A stretch of DNA of 42,434 nucleotides, taken from the IMG/VR virus record IMGVR_UViG_3300035698_002806, positions 1-42,434 of that record. One strand, given 5' to 3'. Positions 3,417 through 34,300 of this stretch are shown here, one piece after another. Under the pieces are notes generated by a model that worked only from the letters and a program-made list of their open reading frames with translations, was not told where the DNA came from and searched no databases. Position numbers and translations under genes: made by a program. The stretch is from a virus. Numbering within the stretch: position 1 is the stretch's first letter; each line of letters begins with the position of its first letter.

Positions 3417-3690
3417 CTTGAAATTCCTTGATTTCTTTGTTAACAGCATCTAATTTTTTGGTGGCTAACTTTAATAATAAAGCTGGTACTGCTACACAAC
3501 CCCCAACATCATTTATTCTAACACTACCTACAATAGCATCTTCACCTATTTTACCACTTTTTCCAGTAAATAACATTGTACCAGCATTATATTTTAAAAA
3601 CTTTAATTCACGTATTACAGTACTGTAATGTGCTGAATCACCGATCAACCTATCTAATTGGCACTGGCATTTTGGTAGATACTTAGTCAT
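3400..3690 (-). CDS. hypothetical protein, 96 aa
   Basis: Unrecognised soluble protein with a Gly/Val-rich middle (GKIGEDAIVGSVRIND) and a charged C-terminal helix. It overlaps the polymerase start by 17 bp and the preceding gene by 4 bp, so it is translationally coupled to the polymerase. No catalytic motif is visible. Confidence 0.6.
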   Translation of the reverse strand: MTKYLPKCQCQLDRLIGDSAHYSTVIRELKFLKYNAGTMLFTGKSGKIGEDAIVGSVRINDVGGCVAVPALLLKLATKKLDAVNKEIKEFQDGNND

Positions 3691-3902
3691 ATTGGCTCCT
3701 TATCTTGTAATTCATTCCATGGATTAATGTTTGGTTTTTCAATTGCTCCATTGTTTTTAATATCAGCCCAAGACCAACCTTCTGCACCTTCAACATGTAA
3801 ATGAAATTGTATTTCGTCCTTTGGTAATTCTGGATGAAGTGTTTCTTTCAAGATCCCTTGAATCTTGTTGGCTATATCTCTTTTCTGTTTTACTGAGAAC
3901 AT
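3687..3902 (-). CDS. hypothetical protein, 71 aa
   Basis: A small charged protein with an N-terminal helix (FSVKQKRDIANKIQGILKE) and a histidine-containing FHLHVEGAEGWSW stretch. It overlaps both neighbours by a few bases. Unrecognised. Confidence 0.55.
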   Translation of the reverse strand: MFSVKQKRDIANKIQGILKETLHPELPKDEIQFHLHVEGAEGWSWADIKNNGAIEKPNINPWNELQDKEPI

Positions 3903-5485: not shown

Positions 5486-5884
5486 TCAGTAAGCGTTGCT
5501 TTTAATATTGCTAACTATATTTTGACCCATAGTCATTAAGTCACATTGGAACTTACTATCTAGTGAATTGATAATAGATTGAGTAATCCCTTGCTCTATT
5601 ACTTTTTTGATTATTATTTTTATGTCATCTTTATGTTCTAACATATATATAACAACATGTTCTCTGACTTGGGGTTCTAATAATTCTTTCACTATGCCAT
5701 GAAGCAATGATGGTTCAATTTCTTTATTATACCTGTCTAATACAGGCTTAAAAAATATGTCATTTACACTAGATTGTATCATCATTGATAATTCTTCATC
5801 AGTGATTAAGTCGCCAATGTCATCCTTAATACGTTCTTTCAATCTATCTTGAAAGCTACCTTGTACTACTAGGTCATCACTCAT
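5486..5884 (-). CDS. hypothetical protein, 132 aa
   Basis: A mostly helical, acidic protein with Ile/Leu-rich amphipathic segments and no Cys motif apart from one C. It overlaps the ParB-like gene behind it by 4 bp, so the two are probably co-translated. Unrecognised. Confidence 0.6.
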   Translation of the reverse strand: MSDDLVVQGSFQDRLKERIKDDIGDLITDEELSMMIQSSVNDIFFKPVLDRYNKEIEPSLLHGIVKELLEPQVREHVVIYMLEHKDDIKIIIKKVIEQGITQSIINSLDSKFQCDLMTMGQNIVSNIKSNAY

Positions 5885-6699
5885 ACCAGCACCCCATCTT
5901 CTGGAGGATGGTATTCTTTACCAACCTTAACTGCTGTTACCTTCATAGTTTCAATCAATTCAGCATCACTCAATTCACCAGTCGTCCAAGCTAAGCAACG
6001 AGTAGTTAAGCCAAAGCCAAAAGTCTTAGAAACATCTTGCATGATTTTCCTAATCTCAAACTTGTTTCTTTGTCTCTTTGTGGACTTGGCTTTATTCTTA
6101 CCACCACGTATTGTTCCACTCTTGCCCATTAACTTATGTTCTTTTATCTTCTTTATCAGTTCAACCTGTGCTTCTCTGTCACCACGTAGACTATACAGGT
6201 CTCTGACATTCACTTGATTAATCAATCCTGCTTTTATTTCAGCTTGGATATCTTCATCAAGTCTTAGCACCATAGTACGTACTTGAACCCAACCCTTTGG
6301 CTTTCCAATACGGTCAATGATTATTTTCTCAGATAAGCCAGCAGTTACTAACTTTTCAATAGCTAGACTTTCTTCATAAAGTGACAGGTTACTGCGTTGT
6401 AGATTCTCAGCTAAATTGAGTATACGTGCTGATGCATCATCTAAGTCATCCCTCACCATACATGGTATCTCAACTCTACCTTCAATAATCTTGAAAGCCA
6501 TATGCCTTCTGTGACCAGCTATAATACGATAAGTGAACCCATCCTTGTTATAATGTTGCACTATAATTGGTGTTAATAATCCATTCTTTTCAATGTCTTT
6601 AGCCAACTGCAAAACATCCATTGGTATAATTTGACCACGGCAATTGAATTCTGGATCTGAGAATATATCATCCAACTTAATTAAATTTGTTTCATACAT
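5881..6699 (-). CDS. ParB/sulfiredoxin-fold DNA-binding protein
   Basis: 272 aa. Shows the ParB N-terminal nuclease-like fold: GLLTPIIV, then RIIAGHRRHMAF (ParB box II around residues 60-72), ENLQRSNL (box III) and a helix-turn-helix region around 125-165 (GLSEKIIIDRIGKPKGWVQ). Phage proteins of this family act as DNA-binding regulators or CTP-dependent clamps. Start ATG 6699 with GGGAG 8 bases upstream is preferred to a TTG at 6717. A second, different ParB-like protein lies at 10558-11559. Confidence 0.8.
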   Translation of the reverse strand: MYETNLIKLDDIFSDPEFNCRGQIIPMDVLQLAKDIEKNGLLTPIIVQHYNKDGFTYRIIAGHRRHMAFKIIEGRVEIPCMVRDDLDDASARILNLAENLQRSNLSLYEESLAIEKLVTAGLSEKIIIDRIGKPKGWVQVRTMVLRLDEDIQAEIKAGLINQVNVRDLYSLRGDREAQVELIKKIKEHKLMGKSGTIRGGKNKAKSTKRQRNKFEIRKIMQDVSKTFGFGLTTRCLAWTTGELSDAELIETMKVTAVKVGKEYHPPEDGVLV

Positions 6700-8623
6700 T
6701 TTGCAAGCTCCCTTCAAAAGCTAGTTCATCACTACGTTTCGTTGTGTTTTCAATGGCATCTCTTAACTTCACCATTGACAGATTCTGTAAATCTTTCTTA
6801 CGTTGTAGATTACTTAATATTAATTTGTCTGTATCTAAATTAACTATATCTATAATCGTTGCTCCTTTGTTAGTATCCATTCCTGGTCTATGTATTCTAT
6901 CCTCAGACTGCATACGACTTTCAGCATTAAAATCATTACTGAAATATATTTCAACTGGAGAGGCAGTAAGTGTCAGTCCCATACCACCTGCTCCAGGTTG
7001 TGCTACAAATGCTATTAAGGGTAAAGTTCCTTCCTGAAATTCAATCAGCATTTGCTCCAGATTCTCAGCTCCCTCAATATCAGTTGTATGCCCTCGTCCA
7101 TCCACCTTGATATATTTCCATCCAGCTTTAGAAACTATATCTATAACCTTGTCTACTGAACCTTGGAATCCAGCATAGATTACCACTCGCCCATATTCCT
7201 CAAATTCATCCAATAAGTCTTTTAATACTGCATCCTTTGGTGACTTAACCATTTGAGCCACACGTTTTATTTGTTCCTCCTTTCCTTTTCCATTACACCT
7301 TGTACATTGTGGCATTTCAGGGTCAGCCTGAAATGGATCTTTACCAGTACCCTTACAGATTTTACAATCGATAATTTTACCAGTTGGTACTTCCTTATAT
7401 TGAAACCCATCACTTAGTTCTCTACATTTACTTAAAGCTGTGATAGCTCTTGGTGCTGTACTAACTATTAACTTTTGTGCCCTTAGTGTTGCTGGGTCAG
7501 GTTCACATTCAATGATTCTATAAATCTTGTCAGGTAATTCTAAGCAATCCTTTTTGAACTTCACTAAAGTTAAACCCTTCATCCGTTCACCCAGATACTC
7601 TACTTCGTTTCTTGCTTCTATAAAGATATGAAAAGCTGGATTTAATACCTTTGTTGGTGCTTCCATCAGTTTATCAAAGGAAAATGCTTCACCTTCAACT
7701 GGGTCGGGCATACTATCTATCCAACGTTGTGTGTGATTAACATCATCACGATCAAGACCACATTTAACACAGATGCCATCACAATCAAACCATGTAACTA
7801 AATGTGGGTACATATTACCTGCAATACCTTCACGTTGCTCAATAAATCCTAAACGCTTTTTGAACTTGTGTATGTTACCTTCTACAAAGAACCCAGGACA
7901 TGCTATTTCTGTTAACCAATACCAGTCACTAGGGTTCTTAGGTGAAGGTGTACCAGACATTAAGATTACATAACCATCTGCTGAATGTTTATTTCTGATT
8001 TTCTCAGCAATAAGCATAGCATTTGTGCTACGTTTGGCATTGGGATTCTTGAGTTTGGAACATTCATCAAATACTACACCATCATATTGTATATCTATTA
8101 CTTTATGTAATGATGCATAGGTGCTGAATGTTGGATAGATCTTAGTTTTCCATTTACGGAATTCTAATTTCACAGCTGAGATAGCAGACTTAGGACCAAC
8201 CCATAACCATTTAGTAAAGCCACGTTTGGTAGCATACTCCATAGTTTCGATTGCTGCAAGTGTTTTACCAACACCCATTTCCTCAGCAAGTATGCATTGG
8301 TGTCTGGTGATGGTGTGTCTTACAGTTTCAGTCTGATGATCATATAATCCACGCTGTGATGTGTAAGGTAGTAGTTCAGCATCATAGAGTTTATATGGTT
8401 CTAGACCCTCTAATGCTTCTAATTGGAAGATATTTCTATTGTTTGCTTTGATGCTCCAAGTCTTATTTTTTGGTTCCCATCTAGCACCATCCATATTCTT
8501 AATAGATTTTAATAGATGTTGATTGTAGGAAAACGCTAAGATTATGACATCTTTTACCCAAGTCAATTTGACTGGTATCATAAATCTATCAGCTTTTAGT
8601 CTGGTTAGCTCTGTGGTAGACAT
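6692..8623 (-). CDS. SNF2-family helicase with HARP-like N-terminus
   Basis: 643 aa superfamily 2 ATPase. The N-terminus (MDGARWEPKNKTWSI) resembles the HARP domain of annealing helicases such as SMARCAL1. Motif I is EEMGVGKT (around 114), motif II FDECSK (around 188), motif III MSGTP (around 223); the C-terminal core shows GAGGMGLTLT and the motif VI SEDRIHRPGM (around 573). Unusual insertions lie between the lobes: CVKCG near 280 and CKICKGTG...CTRCNGKG (around 419-442), a DnaJ-like CxxCxGxG pair. Probably remodels forks or branched DNA during replication. The C-terminus overlaps the ParB-like gene start by 8 bp. Confidence 0.9.
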   Translation of the reverse strand: MSTTELTRLKADRFMIPVKLTWVKDVIILAFSYNQHLLKSIKNMDGARWEPKNKTWSIKANNRNIFQLEALEGLEPYKLYDAELLPYTSQRGLYDHQTETVRHTITRHQCILAEEMGVGKTLAAIETMEYATKRGFTKWLWVGPKSAISAVKLEFRKWKTKIYPTFSTYASLHKVIDIQYDGVVFDECSKLKNPNAKRSTNAMLIAEKIRNKHSADGYVILMSGTPSPKNPSDWYWLTEIACPGFFVEGNIHKFKKRLGFIEQREGIAGNMYPHLVTWFDCDGICVKCGLDRDDVNHTQRWIDSMPDPVEGEAFSFDKLMEAPTKVLNPAFHIFIEARNEVEYLGERMKGLTLVKFKKDCLELPDKIYRIIECEPDPATLRAQKLIVSTAPRAITALSKCRELSDGFQYKEVPTGKIIDCKICKGTGKDPFQADPEMPQCTRCNGKGKEEQIKRVAQMVKSPKDAVLKDLLDEFEEYGRVVIYAGFQGSVDKVIDIVSKAGWKYIKVDGRGHTTDIEGAENLEQMLIEFQEGTLPLIAFVAQPGAGGMGLTLTASPVEIYFSNDFNAESRMQSEDRIHRPGMDTNKGATIIDIVNLDTDKLILSNLQRKKDLQNLSMVKLRDAIENTTKRSDELAFEGSLQNV

Positions 8624-9705: not shown

Positions 9706-10371
9706 TTATGTTGCTCTTTCTGTTCCAGTTGCTGCTGCTGTAGCCATTTCAGCACCACTTGCAGCTGGATTATAGAATCTTTTCACTTCTTCTTTCATTT
9801 TAACAGCCTCAGGCAGATTTTCAATCGGAACACTACAAGCCGTGATTTTTGGAGCATGCCATGTATATGTAGCCTTTTTGACTAACTGCGCTGATATTGT
9901 TGCTGCTCTACCAATAGATGCAGAGAAAGCCTTACTTACATACCTTGATGATTTGTTACCAAGAAAGTAAGGAACAAAGCGATCCAGTTCAGGTACCCAT
10001 AAGAGATACTCAGGTCCATACATATTACCCTGTGATACCTCTTTATTCTTACTGTCTGAGTCTTCCTGAACCTTTTGAAATTCAGCACTATCTATGTCAT
10101 AATAGGCATTAACAGTGTCGCCTAGGATTAACATAGCTTTTGGTTGCCATACAACTGGTATGCAGTCGAATGAATTACCAAGGTCTTGAATGTCTTGACC
10201 TATGACACAACCAAAATGACCCATTGCTATTTTTTCAGTTTTAACATCTTCTGAATTTGCACCATACAATTGAATCCTTGCAAACTCAGTGTTGTTAACA
10301 ATCTTTTCCATATCATCTTCACTGTATCTCTGTGGTATGGAAGCCTGTGGTATTAGTAAGTCGTTACTCAT
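9706..10371 (-). CDS. hypothetical protein, probably early DNA-metabolism, 221 aa
   Basis: I do not recognise the family with confidence. Central motifs GPEYLLWVPELDRFVPYFLGNKSSR are the most distinctive part; the C-terminus is a disordered Ala/Thr tail (GAEMATAAATGTERAT). An acidic/aromatic mix with a flexible tail would suit a single-strand DNA-binding or recombination accessory protein, but this is inference only. Start ATG 10371 has GAGG 8 bases upstream. The gene stands alone between two non-coding stretches and has GATTA-type repeats just ahead of it, so it may have its own regulated promoter. Codons look more GC-rich than in most neighbours. Confidence 0.65.
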   Translation of the reverse strand: MSNDLLIPQASIPQRYSEDDMEKIVNNTEFARIQLYGANSEDVKTEKIAMGHFGCVIGQDIQDLGNSFDCIPVVWQPKAMLILGDTVNAYYDIDSAEFQKVQEDSDSKNKEVSQGNMYGPEYLLWVPELDRFVPYFLGNKSSRYVSKAFSASIGRAATISAQLVKKATYTWHAPKITACSVPIENLPEAVKMKEEVKRFYNPAASGAEMATAAATGTERAT

Positions 10372-10394
10372 TTTTAATTCCTCATTAGTTATAA

Positions 10395-10423
10395 CTGATT
10401 AAGTAATCTCTGATTACTGATTA
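10395..10423. promoter_or_regulatory. three CTGATTA direct repeats
   Basis: CTGATTA occurs at 10395, 10410 and 10417, and the first forms a near-palindrome with TAATCT. The core GATTA matches the half-site of the palindromes in the divergent control region. They lie 24-52 bp upstream of the 221-aa gene, a natural operator position. Confidence 0.45.
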
Positions 10424-10426
10424 AAA

Positions 10427-10520
10427 GGGTGTCGCAGGACTCAGCCTAAATAGATAGTCTACATGAGCTTTACCTGCATATTGTGAGTTAGCGCCCACTG
10501 CTCTTATCAGCCACACACCC
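10427..10520 (-). ncRNA. structured, tRNA-like non-coding element, 94 nt
   Basis: On the minus strand GGGTGT pairs with ACACCC, and a further GCAGG pairs with CCTGC next to it, giving a tRNA-like closed structure. The 5' part (GGGTGTGTGGCTG...GAGCAGTG) resembles a tRNA acceptor and D arm, and GTGGG/CTCAC could form an anticodon stem, but the loop is 6 nt and no standard T loop is present. It is followed by TTTT. A degenerate tRNA or a small regulatory RNA are both possible. A 34-codon frame through it lacks a ribosome site. Confidence 0.35.
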
Positions 10521-10540
10521 AACATTTTGTATCTTAACAC

Positions 10541-10555
10541 TGATTGGTATAATCA
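10541..10555. promoter_or_regulatory. 15-bp palindromic operator-like site
   Basis: TGATTG, 3-bp spacer, TAATCA: one mismatch from the NGATTA-N3-TAATCN palindrome repeated at 11623, 11647, 11678 and 12180. It lies just after the stop of the 333-aa ParB-like gene and upstream of the tRNA-like RNA and the 221-aa gene. Confidence 0.45.
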
Positions 10556-10557
10556 GC

Positions 10558-11559
10558 TTAGACTATTGTTGTTTCCTCGCCTTCAGTTACAGGAGGTGCT
10601 TCTTTGACTCCAAGCAATGAGGCAGCAGTATCAGTTGCTTCTGTTTCTGCTTTCTCTTTTTTCTTGGCTTCACGTTCTTCTTTCTTGCGAGCTTTTGCTT
10701 CTTCCAAGGATGCTTTACGTGCTTCCCATTTAGCTCTTGCCTCTTCAACAGAGTCATCATCAAGATGAAGAACCCATTTCAGTACAAGTGCTGCTGCTTC
10801 AACAGGATCAGTAATCCCTGCTGCAGAAAGCATTGATGCAATGACCGTAATATCTTCATTAACATCTTTAACTTCCTGAGGTTTCCGCATATGTGCAGTA
10901 GCAGTAAATATTTCCTTCTCTGCTGCACGACCTTCACGGTTAGCTGTATTAATCTCTTTGACTCTGGCTTTCACATCACCACCGAATTGTGCAGGTGCGT
11001 CAGTCATAGCACGGTCAACGAAATTGTTTTGCTCTGTGTCCGGAAGTTTTGCCAACAGATAAGCATTGGTCAAACCAATTTTACCTTCGTCAACAAGTGC
11101 TTGGATATCAGGGCTTAACTTCAGAAGATTCAAACGTTCACTAATCCAGGTTGTGTTTGTATTGAGTTTACCAGACAACTCGATTAAGGTCATCAGCGGA
11201 TGGGCTGCTAAGATTTTCTTAATCTGTTCGGCATACTGAACAGGCTTGGTGTCAACTTTGTGATAGTTGGCAATAAGCTGTAATTCCTGTGCATGTACAT
11301 CATCCCTGACTTCCAGGATATGCAGTGGAATCTCAGTGAGACCAGCGCGTTTTGCACCCAGATAGCGATGAAGACCATCAATCAGGATATACTTACCTGA
11401 ACCAGCGCTGTCAACATGAGCATTGGGAGGATTAAGAATACCTTCTGCTCTTACTGAATCGACTATTTCTTGAAAACGTTCGCTCTCTTCATCAACCGTT
11501 CTAAGGGCGACAGGGGACTCAATGATGTCACTGAGTGCTACGGTTTTTTGTTCTGACAT
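10558..11559 (-). CDS. ParB-like nuclease/DNA-binding protein next to the control region
   Basis: 333 aa. The ParB N-terminal domain is clear: EGILNPPNAHV, then GKYILIDGLHRYLGAKRAG (the GxHR-type box) and IANYHKVDTKPVQYAEQI. A helix-turn-helix follows around residues 120-165 (TLIELSGKLNTNTTWISERL). The C-terminus is a highly charged Lys/Glu helix (about 270-310) and an acidic tail. It is the first gene leftward of the divergent region, with AAAGGAG ahead of ATG 11559, and its own upstream DNA carries four palindromes that are good candidates for its binding sites. Base composition is visibly more GC-rich than the nearby early genes, as for the coat gene, suggesting strong expression. Confidence 0.82.
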   Translation of the reverse strand: MSEQKTVALSDIIESPVALRTVDEESERFQEIVDSVRAEGILNPPNAHVDSAGSGKYILIDGLHRYLGAKRAGLTEIPLHILEVRDDVHAQELQLIANYHKVDTKPVQYAEQIKKILAAHPLMTLIELSGKLNTNTTWISERLNLLKLSPDIQALVDEGKIGLTNAYLLAKLPDTEQNNFVDRAMTDAPAQFGGDVKARVKEINTANREGRAAEKEIFTATAHMRKPQEVKDVNEDITVIASMLSAAGITDPVEAAALVLKWVLHLDDDSVEEARAKWEARKASLEEAKARKKEEREAKKKEKAETEATDTAASLLGVKEAPPVTEGEETTIV

Positions 11560-11580
11560 ACTCCAAACTCCTTTTGTTTT

Positions 11581-11606
11581 GACTATCGATTTAATAATCT
11601 ATAGTC
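11581..11606. promoter_or_regulatory. imperfect 26-bp palindrome
   Basis: GACTAT at 11581-11586 mirrors ATAGTC at 11601-11606, and the interior contains CGATT and AATC half-sites (CGATTTAATAATCT). It is the operator-like site nearest to the ParB-like gene start. Confidence 0.45.
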
Positions 11607-11622
11607 GGTTAATAAATAATTC

Positions 11623-11637
11623 CGATTACCTTAATCA
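11623..11637. promoter_or_regulatory. 15-bp operator-like palindrome
   Basis: CGATTA, spacer CCT, TAATCA; one base from perfect symmetry. Part of a regularly spaced series upstream of the ParB-like gene. Confidence 0.5.
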
Positions 11638-11646
11638 ATATCTATT

Positions 11647-11661
11647 CGATTAATATAATCG
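11647..11661. promoter_or_regulatory. 15-bp perfect operator-like palindrome
   Basis: CGATTA, spacer ATA, TAATCG: perfect symmetry and the clearest copy of the 15-bp core. Confidence 0.55.
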
Positions 11662-11671
11662 GAGATTTTCT

Positions 11672-11698
11672 CGATTATGATTAAAATAATCATAATCG
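11672..11698. promoter_or_regulatory. 27-bp perfect palindrome (left operator)
   Basis: Arm CGATTATGATTA at 11672-11683, 3-bp spacer, and its exact reverse complement at 11687-11698. The inner TGATTA-N3-TAATCA is the same core as the other sites. It lies 21 bp outside the left arm of the 44-bp inverted repeat, the mirror position of the site at 12175-12199. Confidence 0.65.
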
Positions 11699-11719
11699 CT
11701 CTGACTTGGTGTTACGTTC

Positions 11720-11763
11720 CTTACACTATCTAATACGTCAAAAAGTAGAAAAAATTCAATGAA
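11720..11763. repeat. left arm of a perfect 44-bp inverted repeat
   Basis: Every base of this arm is the reverse complement of 12106-12149; the match ends sharply at both sides. Read outward (minus strand) it contains TTGAAT and, 18 bp on, TATTAG, as well as TTGACG, so each arm may carry an outward-facing promoter element. Confidence 0.85.
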
Positions 11764-11775
11764 AATAAAAAATAA

Positions 11776-11804
11776 TTGAAAAAAAGTTTTTCCCTTTATA
11801 TAAT
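11776..11804 (+). promoter_or_regulatory. sigma70-like promoter inside the control region
   Basis: TTGAAA (11776-11781), a 17-bp spacer and a perfect TATAAT (11799-11804). Transcription would start near 11811, about 400 nt ahead of the first plus-strand gene, and run through the possible origin. Confidence 0.65.
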
Positions 11805-12105
11805 AAGGTAATGCGTGTGCGTAGTGCCGTATTTGCCTTGTAACGCCATTCTAACGGGACTTATTGACTTTGACGGTTCAAGGTACGGGAATACATTAAA
11901 AGCCTGTCACATGCTTAATACGACTAAATAAGTCAAAATAAGCAATTTCGAGCGTGAAATATTTACTTATTTACTTATTGAAAAAGTCATATCCCATATA
12001 TACGCAACATGTTATGACTTATTTATATTTCATAAAATAAAGTAAGTAAGTAAGTAAGTAAATAAGCTAGGTACAAAAAGCCGTATTTATACATATTTTT
12101 TCGTA
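11805..12105. other. candidate replication origin, between the inverted-repeat arms
   Basis: About 300 bp without a gene, AT-rich and full of structure. AAGTCATA (11984) pairs with TATGACTT (12013), and CTTATTTACTT (11967) pairs with AAGTAAATAAG (12055) around it. GCCGTATTT occurs near 11826 and 12079. The setting (divergent replication operons, repeats, an internal promoter) is typical of a phage or plasmid origin, but origin function is inference. Confidence 0.4.
12040..12065. repeat. AAGT tetranucleotide tandem repeat
   Basis: Five AAGT units followed by AAATAAG. A looser copy of the complementary motif (ATTTACTT twice) lies at 11961-11978, so the two can form a stem. Such arrays can act as iteron-like binding sites or DNA-unwinding elements. 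Confidence 0.6.
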
Positions 12106-12149
12106 TTCATTGAATTTTTTCTACTTTTTGACGTATTAGATAGTGTAAG
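12106..12149. repeat. right arm of the perfect 44-bp inverted repeat
   Basis: Reverse complement of 11720-11763 without a mismatch. The distal part supplies the TTGACG of the promoter feeding the plus-strand operon. Confidence 0.85.
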
Positions 12150-12156
12150 CTAGTAT
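12128..12156 (+). promoter_or_regulatory. probable promoter of the rightward operon
   Basis: TTGACG (12128-12133), 17-bp spacer, TAGTAT (12151-12156). The -35 is inside the inverted-repeat arm and the -10 just outside. The palindromic operator at 12175-12199 is just downstream, where bound protein would block transcription. Confidence 0.5.
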
Positions 12157-12174
12157 TTTATACAATATTTCAGC

Positions 12175-12199
12175 GATTATGATTATTATAATCATAATC
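12175..12199. promoter_or_regulatory. 25-bp perfect palindrome (right operator)
   Basis: GATTATGATTA, spacer TTA, TAATCATAATC. The two half-sites are identical to the inner 11 bases of the left operator, so one protein should bind both sides of the divergent region. It lies 30 bp ahead of the primase-helicase start. Confidence 0.65.
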
Positions 12200-12228
12200 A
12201 CAATTTAGGAAAGGATTTAGTAATCCAT

Positions 12229-14814
12229 ATGAGAGGCGAAATTGTAAGAGAGTTTCTAAAGCTAAAAGCATTACCAGATTTATACAATCTGTATGATGTG
12301 AATATGCAATGCCATGTCCTAGTCGCACAGGATAATGGTAAGCGTGATTCTGAGAGCAACACATGGACTGATGGTGTTGAGACATGGTATCCGTTTGTTA
12401 TAACAGATGATATTTCTTTACAGAAAAGACTCTTTTATAACTTCGATAATCATGTTGAAGCTATTGGACTCACAGGTTGGAACTGGAAAGAGAAGACTAC
12501 TCATTGGGTAGCCTTCGATTTTGATGCCATAGTAAATCATAAACAAGGATTGAATGAGGAAGAAATTAATGAGATTATAGAATCTGTTTCACAAATAGAA
12601 TGGGTGACTGTTAGATATTCCACAGGTGGTAAGGGCTTACATGTTTATGTGAATCTTGACCCAGTAATACCTACATTAGATAGAGCAGAACATGCTGCTC
12701 TTGCACGTGCGATACTTCATAAATTATCTGCTTTAACTGGTTACAACTTCAAAGATAAAGTTGATATCTGTGGTGGTAATATGTGGGTATGGCATCGTAA
12801 GATTGTAAATTCTGGCTTAGAGATTTTAAAATCTGGTATTCCATTAACTGATGTTGCTAATTGGAAAGAACATATTAACATAATACATCAGCGTGATAAT
12901 AAGCGTAGTTATGATGATGTAGTTAAGGCTAAAAGTCACGTAGCACTAGACAAACACCATAAGGAATTAATTAATCACTTACAAGATAATAATTGTGTAT
13001 GGTGGTGGGACAACGATAGACACTTATTAGTAGCACATACCTCAGATTTGAAGGAAGCACATACAAATTTAAATATGGCTGGTATTTTTGAGACAAGTAG
13101 TTCTCATACATCCACGCATAATGTATTCATGTATCCAATACGTTCAGGTGGTTGGGTAGTTAGACGCTTCTCCAAGGGTTGTACTGAACATGTTTCTTGG
13201 GATCAAGATGAAGCTGGTTGGACTAGGTGTTATTATAATGTAGAATTAAATCTTGTTACAGCTTCACGTTGTTTTGGTGGAATGGAACGTCCTTCTGGTG
13301 GTTTCGCTTTTCATAGTGTAGAGATGATGCAGAAAGCTGCTGAGGCATTAGGTATTTATCCTGACTTACCAGCTAGTGCATTACGTTTTAAAGCATCATT
13401 AAAGGAGCATAAAGACGGCAGACTGATTATTGAAATCGAAGATAAAGAAAATCTATTGAACAAAGATTTACTTGATTCATGGCTCAGAGAAAAGAATGTC
13501 TGGAAACGTATGTATAATAAGGTTAGAACCTTACAACTTAATGAAGACCTTTTAAAGTATGATGATAAAATCAGGCACTTGATAAGTCCTACTGGTGAAG
13601 ATTGTGGCTGGGTTATAAGTGCTAGTAGTGAATGGAACTTTGAAGCACTAGCTCATGTAAAATTAGCCCTTGAATCAATGGGATTAAAGTATGCAGAAGT
13701 TAAAGAGATACTTGGTAGTAGTGTATTAAAGTGCTGGAAAATGGTTAATATACCTTTTGCTAATGAATATCCTGGTGGTAGACAATGGAATCATAATAGT
13801 GCTAGAATTAGATTTCAACCTTCGATAGAATCATCAATAGATTTAATGCAAAAATGCCCAACATGGTATAAGATATTAAATCACATAGGTAATGGATTAA
13901 ATGAGAGTCTTACAACAAGTCAATGGGCAATTAATGGGTCTATATTGTGTGGTGTGGATTACCTAATCTGTTGGATAGCAAGTATGTTTCAAGAGCCTAC
14001 ACAACCTTTACCTTACCTGTTTCTATATGGTGAGCAAAATGCAGGTAAGAGCATACTACATGAAGCCTTGAGTACATTAATCATAAACGGTGTTACACGT
14101 GCTGACAATGCATTAATCAACACAAGCGGTTTTAATGCTGAATTAGAGTCATCAGTTCTATGTGTTGTTGAGGAAATTGACTTATCAAAGAGTAAGATTG
14201 CTTCAAACCGTATTAAAGATTGGGTCACTTCGCCTGATATCCAGATACATAAAAAATCAAAGACACCTTATACTATGACAAATGTTTCTCATTGGATTCA
14301 ATGCGCTAATGATTATAACTTCTGTCCTGTATTTCCTGGTGATACACGAGTTGTTGTCATATGTGTGAATGAGTTAGTCAACCCAATCCCGAAGAAGCGA
14401 TTAATTAATCAGTTAATCGATGAAGCATCCAACTTCATGGCTTACATACTTAACTTTCAGATTCCTGAATCGAATGACAGGCTCAATGTGCCAGTGATAA
14501 CAACATCTGATAAGTTAAATATTCAAGATATAAATATGTCTTTGGTCCAGCAATTCATAGAAGAGAAATGTCACAAGATAGATGGTCAATTAATAAAGTA
14601 TACTGATTTCTTTAATCAATTCTTAACATGGCTGGGACCAACTACTGATTATTGGAGCAAGCGAAAGGTTGGTAAAGAGATACCGCCTAAATATAAACGA
14701 GGACGTTCAATAAAAGATAACCAAGTCTACTTAGCTAACCTATCTTTTATTAGAGATGCAAAACCTGGAACACCATATGTCATAAGTGAGGGGAAGTTAC
14801 ATGAGCAACGATAG
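12229..14814 (+). CDS. primase-polymerase (AEP) fused to superfamily 3 helicase
   Basis: 861 aa replication protein. The N-terminal part carries archaeo-eukaryotic primase motifs: VAFDFDAI with the metal-binding DxD (around 95-102) and STGGKGLHVYV, the SxGxGxH-type motif (around 132-142). The C-terminal part is a hexameric-helicase ATPase: Walker A GEQNAGKS (around 601), Walker B CVVEEID (around 645) and a sensor-like HWIQCAND. This D5-like architecture primes and unwinds DNA at phage and plasmid origins. It is the first rightward gene from the control region, consistent with origin-linked initiation. The ribosome site is unusual: AGGAAAGGA lies 12-20 bases from ATG, with GGATT/AATCC able to form a hairpin between. 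Confidence 0.88.
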   Translation: MRGEIVREFLKLKALPDLYNLYDVNMQCHVLVAQDNGKRDSESNTWTDGVETWYPFVITDDISLQKRLFYNFDNHVEAIGLTGWNWKEKTTHWVAFDFDAIVNHKQGLNEEEINEIIESVSQIEWVTVRYSTGGKGLHVYVNLDPVIPTLDRAEHAALARAILHKLSALTGYNFKDKVDICGGNMWVWHRKIVNSGLEILKSGIPLTDVANWKEHINIIHQRDNKRSYDDVVKAKSHVALDKHHKELINHLQDNNCVWWWDNDRHLLVAHTSDLKEAHTNLNMAGIFETSSSHTSTHNVFMYPIRSGGWVVRRFSKGCTEHVSWDQDEAGWTRCYYNVELNLVTASRCFGGMERPSGGFAFHSVEMMQKAAEALGIYPDLPASALRFKASLKEHKDGRLIIEIEDKENLLNKDLLDSWLREKNVWKRMYNKVRTLQLNEDLLKYDDKIRHLISPTGEDCGWVISASSEWNFEALAHVKLALESMGLKYAEVKEILGSSVLKCWKMVNIPFANEYPGGRQWNHNSARIRFQPSIESSIDLMQKCPTWYKILNHIGNGLNESLTTSQWAINGSILCGVDYLICWIASMFQEPTQPLPYLFLYGEQNAGKSILHEALSTLIINGVTRADNALINTSGFNAELESSVLCVVEEIDLSKSKIASNRIKDWVTSPDIQIHKKSKTPYTMTNVSHWIQCANDYNFCPVFPGDTRVVVICVNELVNPIPKKRLINQLIDEASNFMAYILNFQIPESNDRLNVPVITTSDKLNIQDINMSLVQQFIEEKCHKIDGQLIKYTDFFNQFLTWLGPTTDYWSKRKVGKEIPPKYKRGRSIKDNQVYLANLSFIRDAKPGTPYVISEGKLHEQR

Positions 14815-14876
14815 CAAAGAAATGAGCAACGATAGCAAAGAAATGAGCAACGATAGCAAAGAAATGAGCAACGATA
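14801..14876 (+). repeat. 21-bp tandem repeat at the start of the methylase gene
   Basis: Three complete 21-bp copies plus 13 bp of a fourth, each beginning ATGAGCAACGATA and encoding MSNDSKE. The repeat keeps frame and each unit offers another ATG. Confidence 0.9.
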
Positions 14877-31325: not shown

Positions 31326-34300
31326 TTATCTTGTGATTTTATTTTTAGAATTTTTTGTCATACCACTAGAAATTATACCATATTCTGTTTCTAAAGCAGT
31401 ACCTTTATTGTTACTAACTTCTGATGTTATACCTTGTTTTTTCATTCTATTGGAATGACCTCCAACACTCTTAGTTATGAGTTTGCCATCCAAATAGACT
31501 GGTACTACAACAACACCACTTTCACTTTCTCTATTTGGGTCATTTTTATCCAATGATACATCTTTAACACCCCATTTATGCGTATTTGTAACTGGTCTAC
31601 GTTGATCAAATACTGCATCTCCCCAGTCAGATTTTCTATCTTTGGCTATTTTTGCTGGGTCCAATTTCTTAGCACCCCTTGTAGTGAAACCACCTTTTAA
31701 ATCTATCTTATTATCTTCAAAGGCTTTTGCTATTTTGTTTTTATCTAATTGATCACGTAATCCAAATCCCTTAGATTCTCTTGGATCAATAAATGATTTT
31801 CCTCTAGCAGTACCACTTTGTAAGCTATATGCACCTTTCTTACCAGATGCCTCATACAATGCTTTTTCTTTATCATCCTGTTTCAATTTTCCAAATTCTA
31901 AAGCCATCTTAGTACCAATTTCAAGACCAAATTTTCTTACATAATAATCTAACATTTGTGCATTTACACCAGTAGCTAAAGCTTTTTCAGCCGTTGCACC
32001 TCTTTTTTCATTAAGTAATATTAATTTATTTAGACCTTTTACAATCTCCGTAGCCACTATTGGTATCGGTTTTAGTTTTGCTGTAGTACCTTCTTTAATT
32101 TCTTTTCCACCCTGAATCCTAATAAGTGTATCTTCAATTATTTTTAACTTTTCACTATATAAAGCATCTTCCAGTTTTTTAGGTTCTTTAGTCTTTTCTT
32201 TAATTACCTTAGACTTTTCTGCTATTTTAGTTATTGTTTCTTTAGCTATTGTTTCTTTAACTGTCGACCCTTTTCCACCTTGAATCCTGTTAAGTGTGTC
32301 TTGAATTGTTTTTAACTTTTCACTATATAGAGAATCTTCCAATTTCTTAGATTCCTCTTTAGGCTTCTCCCTAATTTCTTTACCTTTACTTACTAATTTA
32401 GCTAAATCTTCAGCCTTAGTTTCTTCTTTAGGTTTTGTTTTAGCTATTTCTTTAGCTGTCTCTTTAGCTGCTTCTTTAGGTTTTTCTTTGGAGTTTTCTA
32501 ATTTAGTTCTTTTATCAAATAGATCTTTATAAATAGCATTCCAATTATCTAAGATTTTTTGTAACTCTCCATCTTTACCACCACCTGCTATGAAATAAGT
32601 CTTTTGTAATTTCAATATATCATAAAGAATCTTTTGTGTCTTTTGTGAAGATTCACCTGACCCAAATTTGCTTTGTATACCTTCTAATAATTTAGGAGTA
32701 ATGTCACTCAAGTTATTATTTGATACATTTGCTGTTATTTCTTCAAGATTCTTAAATACATCTAACTTAGCATACAAACCTTCCAACATATCAACTGTAG
32801 CTTGGCTTGTCGCACCTAAAGCATCTGTAATCTTTTTAGCTGCCTCAGCTCCAGCTATTGCATCAGTTAGACTCTTTATATCTAATTCTTCACCTAGACT
32901 TTTTACTGTTTCTCTTAATTGTTCACCATATAAATTAACCTTACCTTGAAAATTAGTCTCTACACCTTGTGATTCTTTAGCTGCTTTATCTAAATGTTTT
33001 GTAGCATATTTTTCTTTTTCTTTTAATTTATTTACATCATTGATCTTCTCTTGGAATTTTGATTGTTCAATCAATAATTCTGCTATTTTATCTAATTTTT
33101 TACTATTTTCATTTTGCAGTGTCCCTAATAATGTATCTCTAGCAGTAGCCAGTGTACTGTATTTCTCAGTCAATGCAGTAGTCTGATCATAAATGCTATC
33201 CTTAACTATAAAACTCTTGTCCAATTCTATTTGTATTTTAGCTAAAGTTTTAGTATCTATTGATTTTACTATATTGTCTTTTCTTGCACCTAAATCCCGT
33301 AATTTTTGTGTAGCTGCAGACTTATCTGAACCTTTAGTCTTAAGTTCTTTTTGTATTATTTTTTCTTGTTTTGATATGTCATTTAATTCTTTAGCTGCTT
33401 CTATAGCTTTTTTCTTTAATTCTAGTAATTTTAATTCCTTTTTCTCTTGGTCTTTTATATACTTAGCTTCCAATTCCTTTTGCTTAGCAAATAATCTATC
33501 ACGTTCTTCCAAAATTTCATTATAAGAAAAGCCATAATCACGTAATTTACTAGTTAAGGAAATTAGATTATCAAAATACTTGCGCCCTAATGCAAGTCTG
33601 CCTTGGCTATATGCTTCACCCGTACTCTCAGCAAGATTGTCTCTTAGTTTTAAGACATAATCTAATTGTTTATTATGTACACTACCTTGATTACCTTGTG
33701 CTTTATATTGTGCTAATTGTTGTCTAGCTTTTAACCATGATTGCTCTATTATTCCAATTTTATCTATAATAGAATTATAAAAACCAAGATTTCTTTCACC
33801 AATGTTAATGCTTTCTATTACTTTTAAAGATCCATATATGTTACTACGGACTTTACTTATGGCGGAATTAATTTGGGATAAGTATTTATTTATTAATGCA
33901 ATACCACCAGTAGTAGATACATTAATTTCTTTAATCATTTTAGTAATACTACCAGTAACTTTAGACAGACTAGTATTTATTTTAGCTATTTTACTAGCTG
34001 CATCTTGTAAGAAGGATTGTCTAATCGCCTCATTACGCTTCTTTATAGCGTTATATTCTGCGTTGATAGCTAATATTCTGGCTTTTGCATTCTTCTTATA
34101 TTGCTGTGAGGATGTTTTTTCAAGTTTTTCTAACTGTAAATATTTGACATTTATTTTATTTAACCAAGCCATATATTCAAAGATTTTTGTGATTGCAAAA
34201 TCAATAGCAAAAATTAAAGCTGCAGATTTTACTAAAGATGCAAATGCTACCCCTACACCCTTCAATGCTGCGCCAAACCTAACTGCTGCTACTCTAGCAA

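Follow-up and report, generated by a model that had tools for sequence, protein, structure and literature searches.

A mirror-symmetric region, a probable divergent control module and candidate replication origin, between a ParB-like gene and a primase-helicase gene of uncultured tailed phages

In the 42,434-bp IMG/VR virus record IMGVR_UViG_3300035698_002806, the whole of which we call the window, a ParB-like gene and a primase-helicase gene diverge from a gap that carries two near-copies of one sequence arm in mirror image. The mirror recurs in dozens of relatives of this phage, and the sequence of the two arms changes jointly from one phage to another. Judged from sequence, the region would be a divergent promoter/operator module of mirror-symmetric build, probably under autoregulation by the ParB-like protein and likely combined with a replication origin for the adjacent NrS-1/D5-like primase-helicase; we give this reading a probability of roughly 0.5.

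Results

Genomic context

The window encodes proteins of a tailed phage, namely a major head protein, a tape measure protein, and a family A polymerase, and also an SNF2-type helicase, a D12 methyltransferase, and a deoxynucleotide kinase; scans for tRNA and against Rfam gave zero matches. Its main divergent gap separates the leftward genes, which reach up to the ParB-like start at 11559, from a rightward operon beginning at 12229 (Table 1). The GC skew switches sign at this gap, merely tracking gene direction, and is thus unusable as evidence for an origin because gene direction sets its sign. Apart from the gap, we noticed two tandem repeats. A 21-bp repeat (ATGAGCAACGATAGCAAAGAA) stands in 3.6 exact copies at 14801-14876, the beginning of the D12 adenine methyltransferase gene, where each unit of ATGAGCAACGATAGCAAAGAA brings its own ATG; a different number of copies would change the N-terminus (MSNDSKE units) and make several start codons available. 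The tape measure gene has a 168-bp tandem repeat in 1.9 copies (32102-32425).

Table 1. Features of the divergent gap and its two flanking genes (window coordinates; an empty cell means that no value is given).
Feature	Position	Strand	Basis or remark
ParB-like protein, 333 aa, gene 1 of leftward operon, candidate autoregulator	10558..11559	-	Pfam, PHROG, gene order in relatives
Imperfect palindrome GACTATCGATTTAATAATCTATAGTC, ParB leader	11581..11606	.	read from sequence
Two more GATTA-N3-TAATC palindromes	11623-11637, 11647-11661	.	
Outer palindrome, left copy, operator candidate, CGATTATGATTA-AAA-TAATCATAATCG	11672..11698	.	sequence
Left arm, perfect 44 nt, onward to 11783 at 88%	11720..11763	-	inverted-repeat search
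Best sigma-70-like site of region, TTGAAA-N17-TATAAT	11776..11804	+	11/12 consensus; left arm inner end, rightward
Outward AGTAAATA-type array, degenerate, TATTTACT x2.5	11960..11979	- (leftward)	repeat scan, family motif
AT-rich core, 77% AT, between arrays, candidate unwinding element (putative function)	11980..12039	.	composition
Outward (AAGT)6.8 array	12040..12066	+ (rightward)	repeat scan, family orientation
Right arm, perfect 44 nt, inward extension from 12086	12106..12149	+	inverted-repeat search
Fair sigma-70-like site TTGACG-N17-TAGTAT, right arm	12128-12156	+	
Outer palindrome, right copy, operator candidate, GATTATGATTAT-T-ATAATCATAATC	12175..12199	.	sequence
Primase-helicase, 861 aa, DUF5906, NrS-1/D5-like, gene 1 of rightward operon	12229..14814	+	

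Mirror arms in the window

A first-pass annotation of this DNA had reported a perfect 44-bp inverted repeat around some 340 bp, with the same palindrome outside each arm at 21 and 25 bp, and both statements hold: the two perfect arms are separated by 342 bp, and the outer palindromes lie where they were placed. The arms form the longest inverted repeat of the window, and an imperfect continuation of the match brings its length to 64 nt at 88%. The self-mirror score of the region was 59 as compared with 11.4 +/- 1.4 in dinucleotide shuffles, none out of 100 of which reached it. A search of the whole window for the arm core gave two hits, which are the arms themselves, against 0.05 expected. Outside the arms, the mirror is imperfect because the left side adds three related palindromes at 11581-11606, 11623-11637, and 11647-11661; with four palindromes on the left and one on the right, symmetric control is therefore not required.

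Conservation of the mirror among relatives

Phage and plasmid records, searched at the nucleotide level, gave no DNA relative, and a protein search among cultured phages hit no relative of the primase. Viral contigs, on the other side of the search, gave 21 matches with the primase alone and 250 with a primase alignment, of which 80 were kept; eight relatives came from bacterial assemblies, mostly Planctomycetota MAGs. The primase contigs L104-L111, binned as Planctomycetota (one of 444 kb), Anaerolinea, and Thioalkalivibrio, may be prophages or products of misbinning, and might give a hint of hosts.

For the analysis of the mirror, we used 80 loci (66 non-redundant) in which the primase and a ParB-like orthologue diverge from a gap 120-1200 bp long; each gap was aligned to its reverse complement (minimum loop, 60 nt), and 100 dinucleotide shuffles served as the comparison. 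The mirror had z>4 in 64 of the 80 loci, and in 67 the observed score was reached by no shuffle, while none of 51 coding control stretches had z>4. About 16 of the 80 loci share the gene order and fall below z=4, so that the mirror is not indispensable; in a few of them (e.g., L022), the arms are nearer to each other than the loop limit allows. The mirror was absent in four relatives (L010, L011, L013, and L015) whose upstream genes are co-directional with the primase. Furthermore, where small genes lie between ParB and primase (L066 and L073), it is ParB that the mirror adjoins (z 18-19), rather than the primase. What the mirror goes with is therefore the divergent start, not the primase gene as such.

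Two loci have repeats of their own. Upstream of the primase in L105, which has no recognisable ParB neighbour there, are two perfect 37-bp copies (3446-3482 and 3665-3701), each near-palindromic (GCCCTTAAACTTTGG...CCAAAGTTTAAGGGC). The ParB/primase gap of L020 (5634-5991) contains a direct repeat of ~27 bp, TAGAACATTGAATTTATTAGACTTACA, inside the mirror with one copy per side.

Joint change of the two arms

The arm sequence varies greatly among phages and agrees inside each phage. To keep arms from being picked by their match, we compared whole halves of the gap: scores averaged ~24 within a locus as opposed to 10-11 for pairs of loci whose primases are 40-60% identical, the latter being close to the shuffle level. 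An instance of such change may be seen in L030 and L037, whose primases are 78% identical; in both arms, the outermost 20 nt have given way to the same new sequence, and the inner parts retain side-specific differences, which is the pattern that block-wise conversion or a factor reading both arms would leave. Because the arms differ between phages, a de novo motif search on the family arms gave a weak motif only. Halves that are alike within a phage and almost completely changed between phages suggest one switch that turns both operons on and off, and possibly a place where copying of the genome begins.

Arms that change jointly would also be expected if they paired as a cruciform or a long hairpin, in supercoiled or single-stranded DNA, with the stem kept by compensatory change. 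We consider this highly improbable, given that the loops are mostly ~70-560 nt and that many arms have spacers differing in length and sequence from one side to the other while the blocks are kept (e.g., L021, L076, and L089), as for protein sites; oriented but non-complementary features (outward AGTM and CGTA) are, moreover, conserved beyond what pairing asks for. Perfect inverted repeats that enclose a promoter-containing segment, on the other hand, call to mind recombination sites, with the 342-bp segment as an invertible switch. This we can hardly credit: the arm sequence is unconserved, unlike a recombinase site, and no site-specific recombinase was seen among the window proteins scanned (most, not all, ORFs). 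The switch is disfavoured because near-identical loci always share one orientation of the centre in the pairs compared (e.g., L029/L030, L033/L034, L058-L061, L076/L077, and L091/L093).

The ParB-like protein and its candidate operators

The protein at the head of the leftward operon matches Pfam ParB_N (5e-8) and HTH_ParB (1e-7) and is ParB-like in PHROG; in most relatives, its orthologue is likewise divergent from the primase. DGLHR replaces the canonical GERR of the GERRxRA CTP-binding motif in the window protein, and none of 12 aligned ParB-like proteins has GERR, all of them having DGLHR or a variant. No ParA was recognised among the window proteins scanned, which are not every ORF of a possibly incomplete contig. 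With the canonical ParB motif absent and no ParA among the scanned proteins, we therefore do not claim membership in ParABS. A second ParB-like gene (278 aa, ParB_N and HTH_ParB) lies in the same leftward operon at 5881-6717 and is also present in some relatives.

Palindromes, which are candidate parS-like sites, cluster in the ParB/primase gap. The half-site GATTTGATT occurs in 34 of the 66 non-redundant gaps, compared with 0.9 in shuffles and 1 in coding stretches; among the loci having it, its density is 5.3 per kb of gap versus 0.023 per kb outside, i.e., ~230-fold. The window gap uses GATTATGATTA in place of GATTTGATT, the form in about half of the family, and an exact search for the window palindrome among viral contigs returned none. 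At the position of window residue 137, which adjoins the invariant Trp of the HTH region, Gln is found in 15 of 34 loci with GATTTGATT and in 1 of 31 others. This association is suggestive of operator recognition but weak; it is confounded by relatedness, for which it is uncorrected, as it is for multiple testing. Another small cluster of GATTA/TAATC palindromes is located at 10372-10557, upstream of a conserved gene of unknown function (9706-10371), and the same protein may therefore also control that gene.

According to the first-pass annotation, the two operons start from near-mirror images and can be controlled by one protein at once. The recurrence of the mirror at divergent starts, the near-confinement of the palindromes, and a neighbour with ParB_N and HTH_ParB speak in part for this proposal, whereas the near-mirror itself is to be taken with the imperfect symmetry outside the arms. 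New with respect to that annotation are the conservation across the family, the joint change of the arms, and the outward AGTM arrays with an AT-rich core, an origin-like arrangement described below.

Candidate promoter elements within the arms

The same annotation had the right arm contribute TTGACG to a promoter. Indeed, TTGACG-N17-TAGTAT is present, but in the left arm the mirrored TTGACG lacks a -10 of like quality, and the promoter claim is hence one-sided. Sigma-70-like sites in the window region are no more numerous than in shuffles. Across the family, plain scanning of the arms for sigma-70 sites revealed no preference for the outward direction (p=0.5), nor did TATA-type hexamers by themselves; a footprint scan, which was the second of the two versions used and demanded a -10 at one aligned position shared by the arms, gave a modest outward excess, in that conserved -10/-35 elements scored higher outward (p=0.003). 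Mirrored promoter pairs are convincing in some loci, such as L067 (TGGACA/TGAACA-17-TATAGT) and L063 (TGGACG/TGGACA-17-TATAGT), and positional profiles across the arms have a minor maximum where the arms end on the outside. Putative sigma-70-like promoters within the arms are thus moderately supported.

Transcription might instead start from the core, so that the arms become identical 5' leaders of both mRNAs and one regulator acts on RNA. Both outward RNAs would then carry the same arm sequence; the arms end 79-160 nt ahead of the start codons, and the left arm, at its inner end, overlaps the strongest sigma-70-like site of the window gap, which points rightward. Such leaders appear improbable to us, however, as an Rfam match is absent and the footprint test puts conserved promoter-like elements inside the arms.

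The primase-helicase and the outward arrays

All 14 members of the primase-helicase family that were tested contain DUF5906. The helicase part matches NrS-1 polymerase (PDB 6k9c/6k9e, E 1.5e-9) and can be placed among D5/NrS-1-like SF3 helicases. The predicted structure (pLDDT 80.5) was matched by Foldseek (E 2e-14) to NrS-1, ASFV PrimPol, poxvirus D5, and the SaPI5 primase-helicase, the whole-length alignments to ASFV PrimPol and poxvirus D5 being of low TM. AEP families gave weak Pfam hits (0.02-0.04), and an N-terminal AEP domain is likely, if weakly supported. The DUF5906 stretch (14023-14328, residues 599-700) coincides with the NrS-1/D5-like helicase core, and the name of this family of "unknown function" could therefore be updated.

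Next to the symmetry centre, the family has arrays of AGTA/AGTC (AGT[AC]AGT), 51 of which run outward, in 23 loci, versus 3 inward; their distance from the centre has a median of 41 nt and is typically 33-50 nt. The right copy is clear in the window and the left copy is degenerate. Oriented short repeats here adjoin an AT-rich core as well as an initiator-type gene, as would befit an origin.

These observations raise the possibility that the region is primarily a bidirectional origin, where the arms and AGTM arrays serve as initiator or priming sites, one per strand, and transcription is secondary. The adjacent gene encodes a PrimPol-type/D5-like primase-helicase, and the outward short arrays flank an AT-rich core with constant spacing from the centre of symmetry; inverted sites surround an AT-rich spacer in HSV oriS (PMC12543377), and NrS-1 primase initiates at specific template sequences (PMC8718748). 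Nonetheless, the mirror follows ParB and not the primase once genes separate the two, it is missing in relatives that have the primase without a divergent ParB, and arms that are almost wholly changed at 60% primase identity would be evolving fast for initiator sites. We accordingly regard a primary origin as possible but rather unlikely.

Discussion

On the reading that we prefer, a divergent promoter/operator module with an origin attached, the region would act as the central control module in a lineage of uncultured tailed phages. Two outward promoter arms, near-copies of each other, would drive the ParB-like operon on the left and the primase-helicase operon on the right. The ParB-like protein would bind the palindromes just downstream of each arm and, once bound, would repress or co-ordinate both operons together with its own gene. 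The outward AGTM arrays around the AT-rich core would be a probable bidirectional replication origin used by the primase-helicase. The arms stay alike by evolving together, which may come about through recombination between the inverted copies, through one trans-acting factor reading both, or through both of these. In a bolder version, which we consider doubtful, origin and divergent promoter are combined, and an active process keeps their two mirror halves uniform; template switching or recombination of the inverted arms with each other, at each start of replication, could be such a process. The specificity of the switch would hence change as a unit, much faster than the surrounding proteins.

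Mirror symmetry that dozens of phages preserve without preserving the sequence itself would offer a clean natural example of concerted evolution in regulatory DNA. The region may also provide a handle on operon switching and on the start of replication in a large group of uncultured PrimPol-carrying phages, with the outward AGTM arrays as a specific candidate initiator site for phage primase-helicases of the NrS-1/D5-like type.

Both divergent control regions and symmetric-site origins have precedents; of a conserved mirror region with joint turnover of its sequence, we found no account in the open-access literature, a limited negative. Divergent operons that share an operator and are governed by an autoregulatory repressor of the ParB/KorB type are alike in having a divergent start by a parB-like gene, palindromes near both starts, and the DNA-binding protein alongside. 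In the phages, in contrast, it is the promoter arms that mirror each other, as near-perfect copies that change jointly between phages, and the protein has DGLHR instead of GERR with no ParA among the proteins scanned. In RSF1010, ssiA and ssiB are two oppositely oriented priming sites for a dedicated AEP-type primase; these ssi sites are conserved hairpins, whereas the phage arms are unconserved between phages.

HSV oriS also sits between divergent genes. The phage region resembles it in having inverted repeated sites around an AT-rich core, which in oriS are inverted initiator boxes around an AT-rich spacer (PMC12543377). The two differ in that the phage is a bacterial virus with a putative initiator of the AEP/D5-like type, while oriS is served by the SF2 helicase UL9, and in that the phage arms, whose origin function is putative, are long and unlike between relatives. 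NrS-1-like PrimPol phages and the SaPI/P4 primase-helicase replicons share with our phages an adjacent gene of the same helicase class. We know of no described counterpart of the mirror arms in NrS-1-like or SaPI/P4 origins. Specific template motifs are required by NrS-1 primase (PMC8718748), namely 5'-TTTGGTTA-3'/GTG, whereas the motifs of the phages described here are arrays of AGTA/AGTC.
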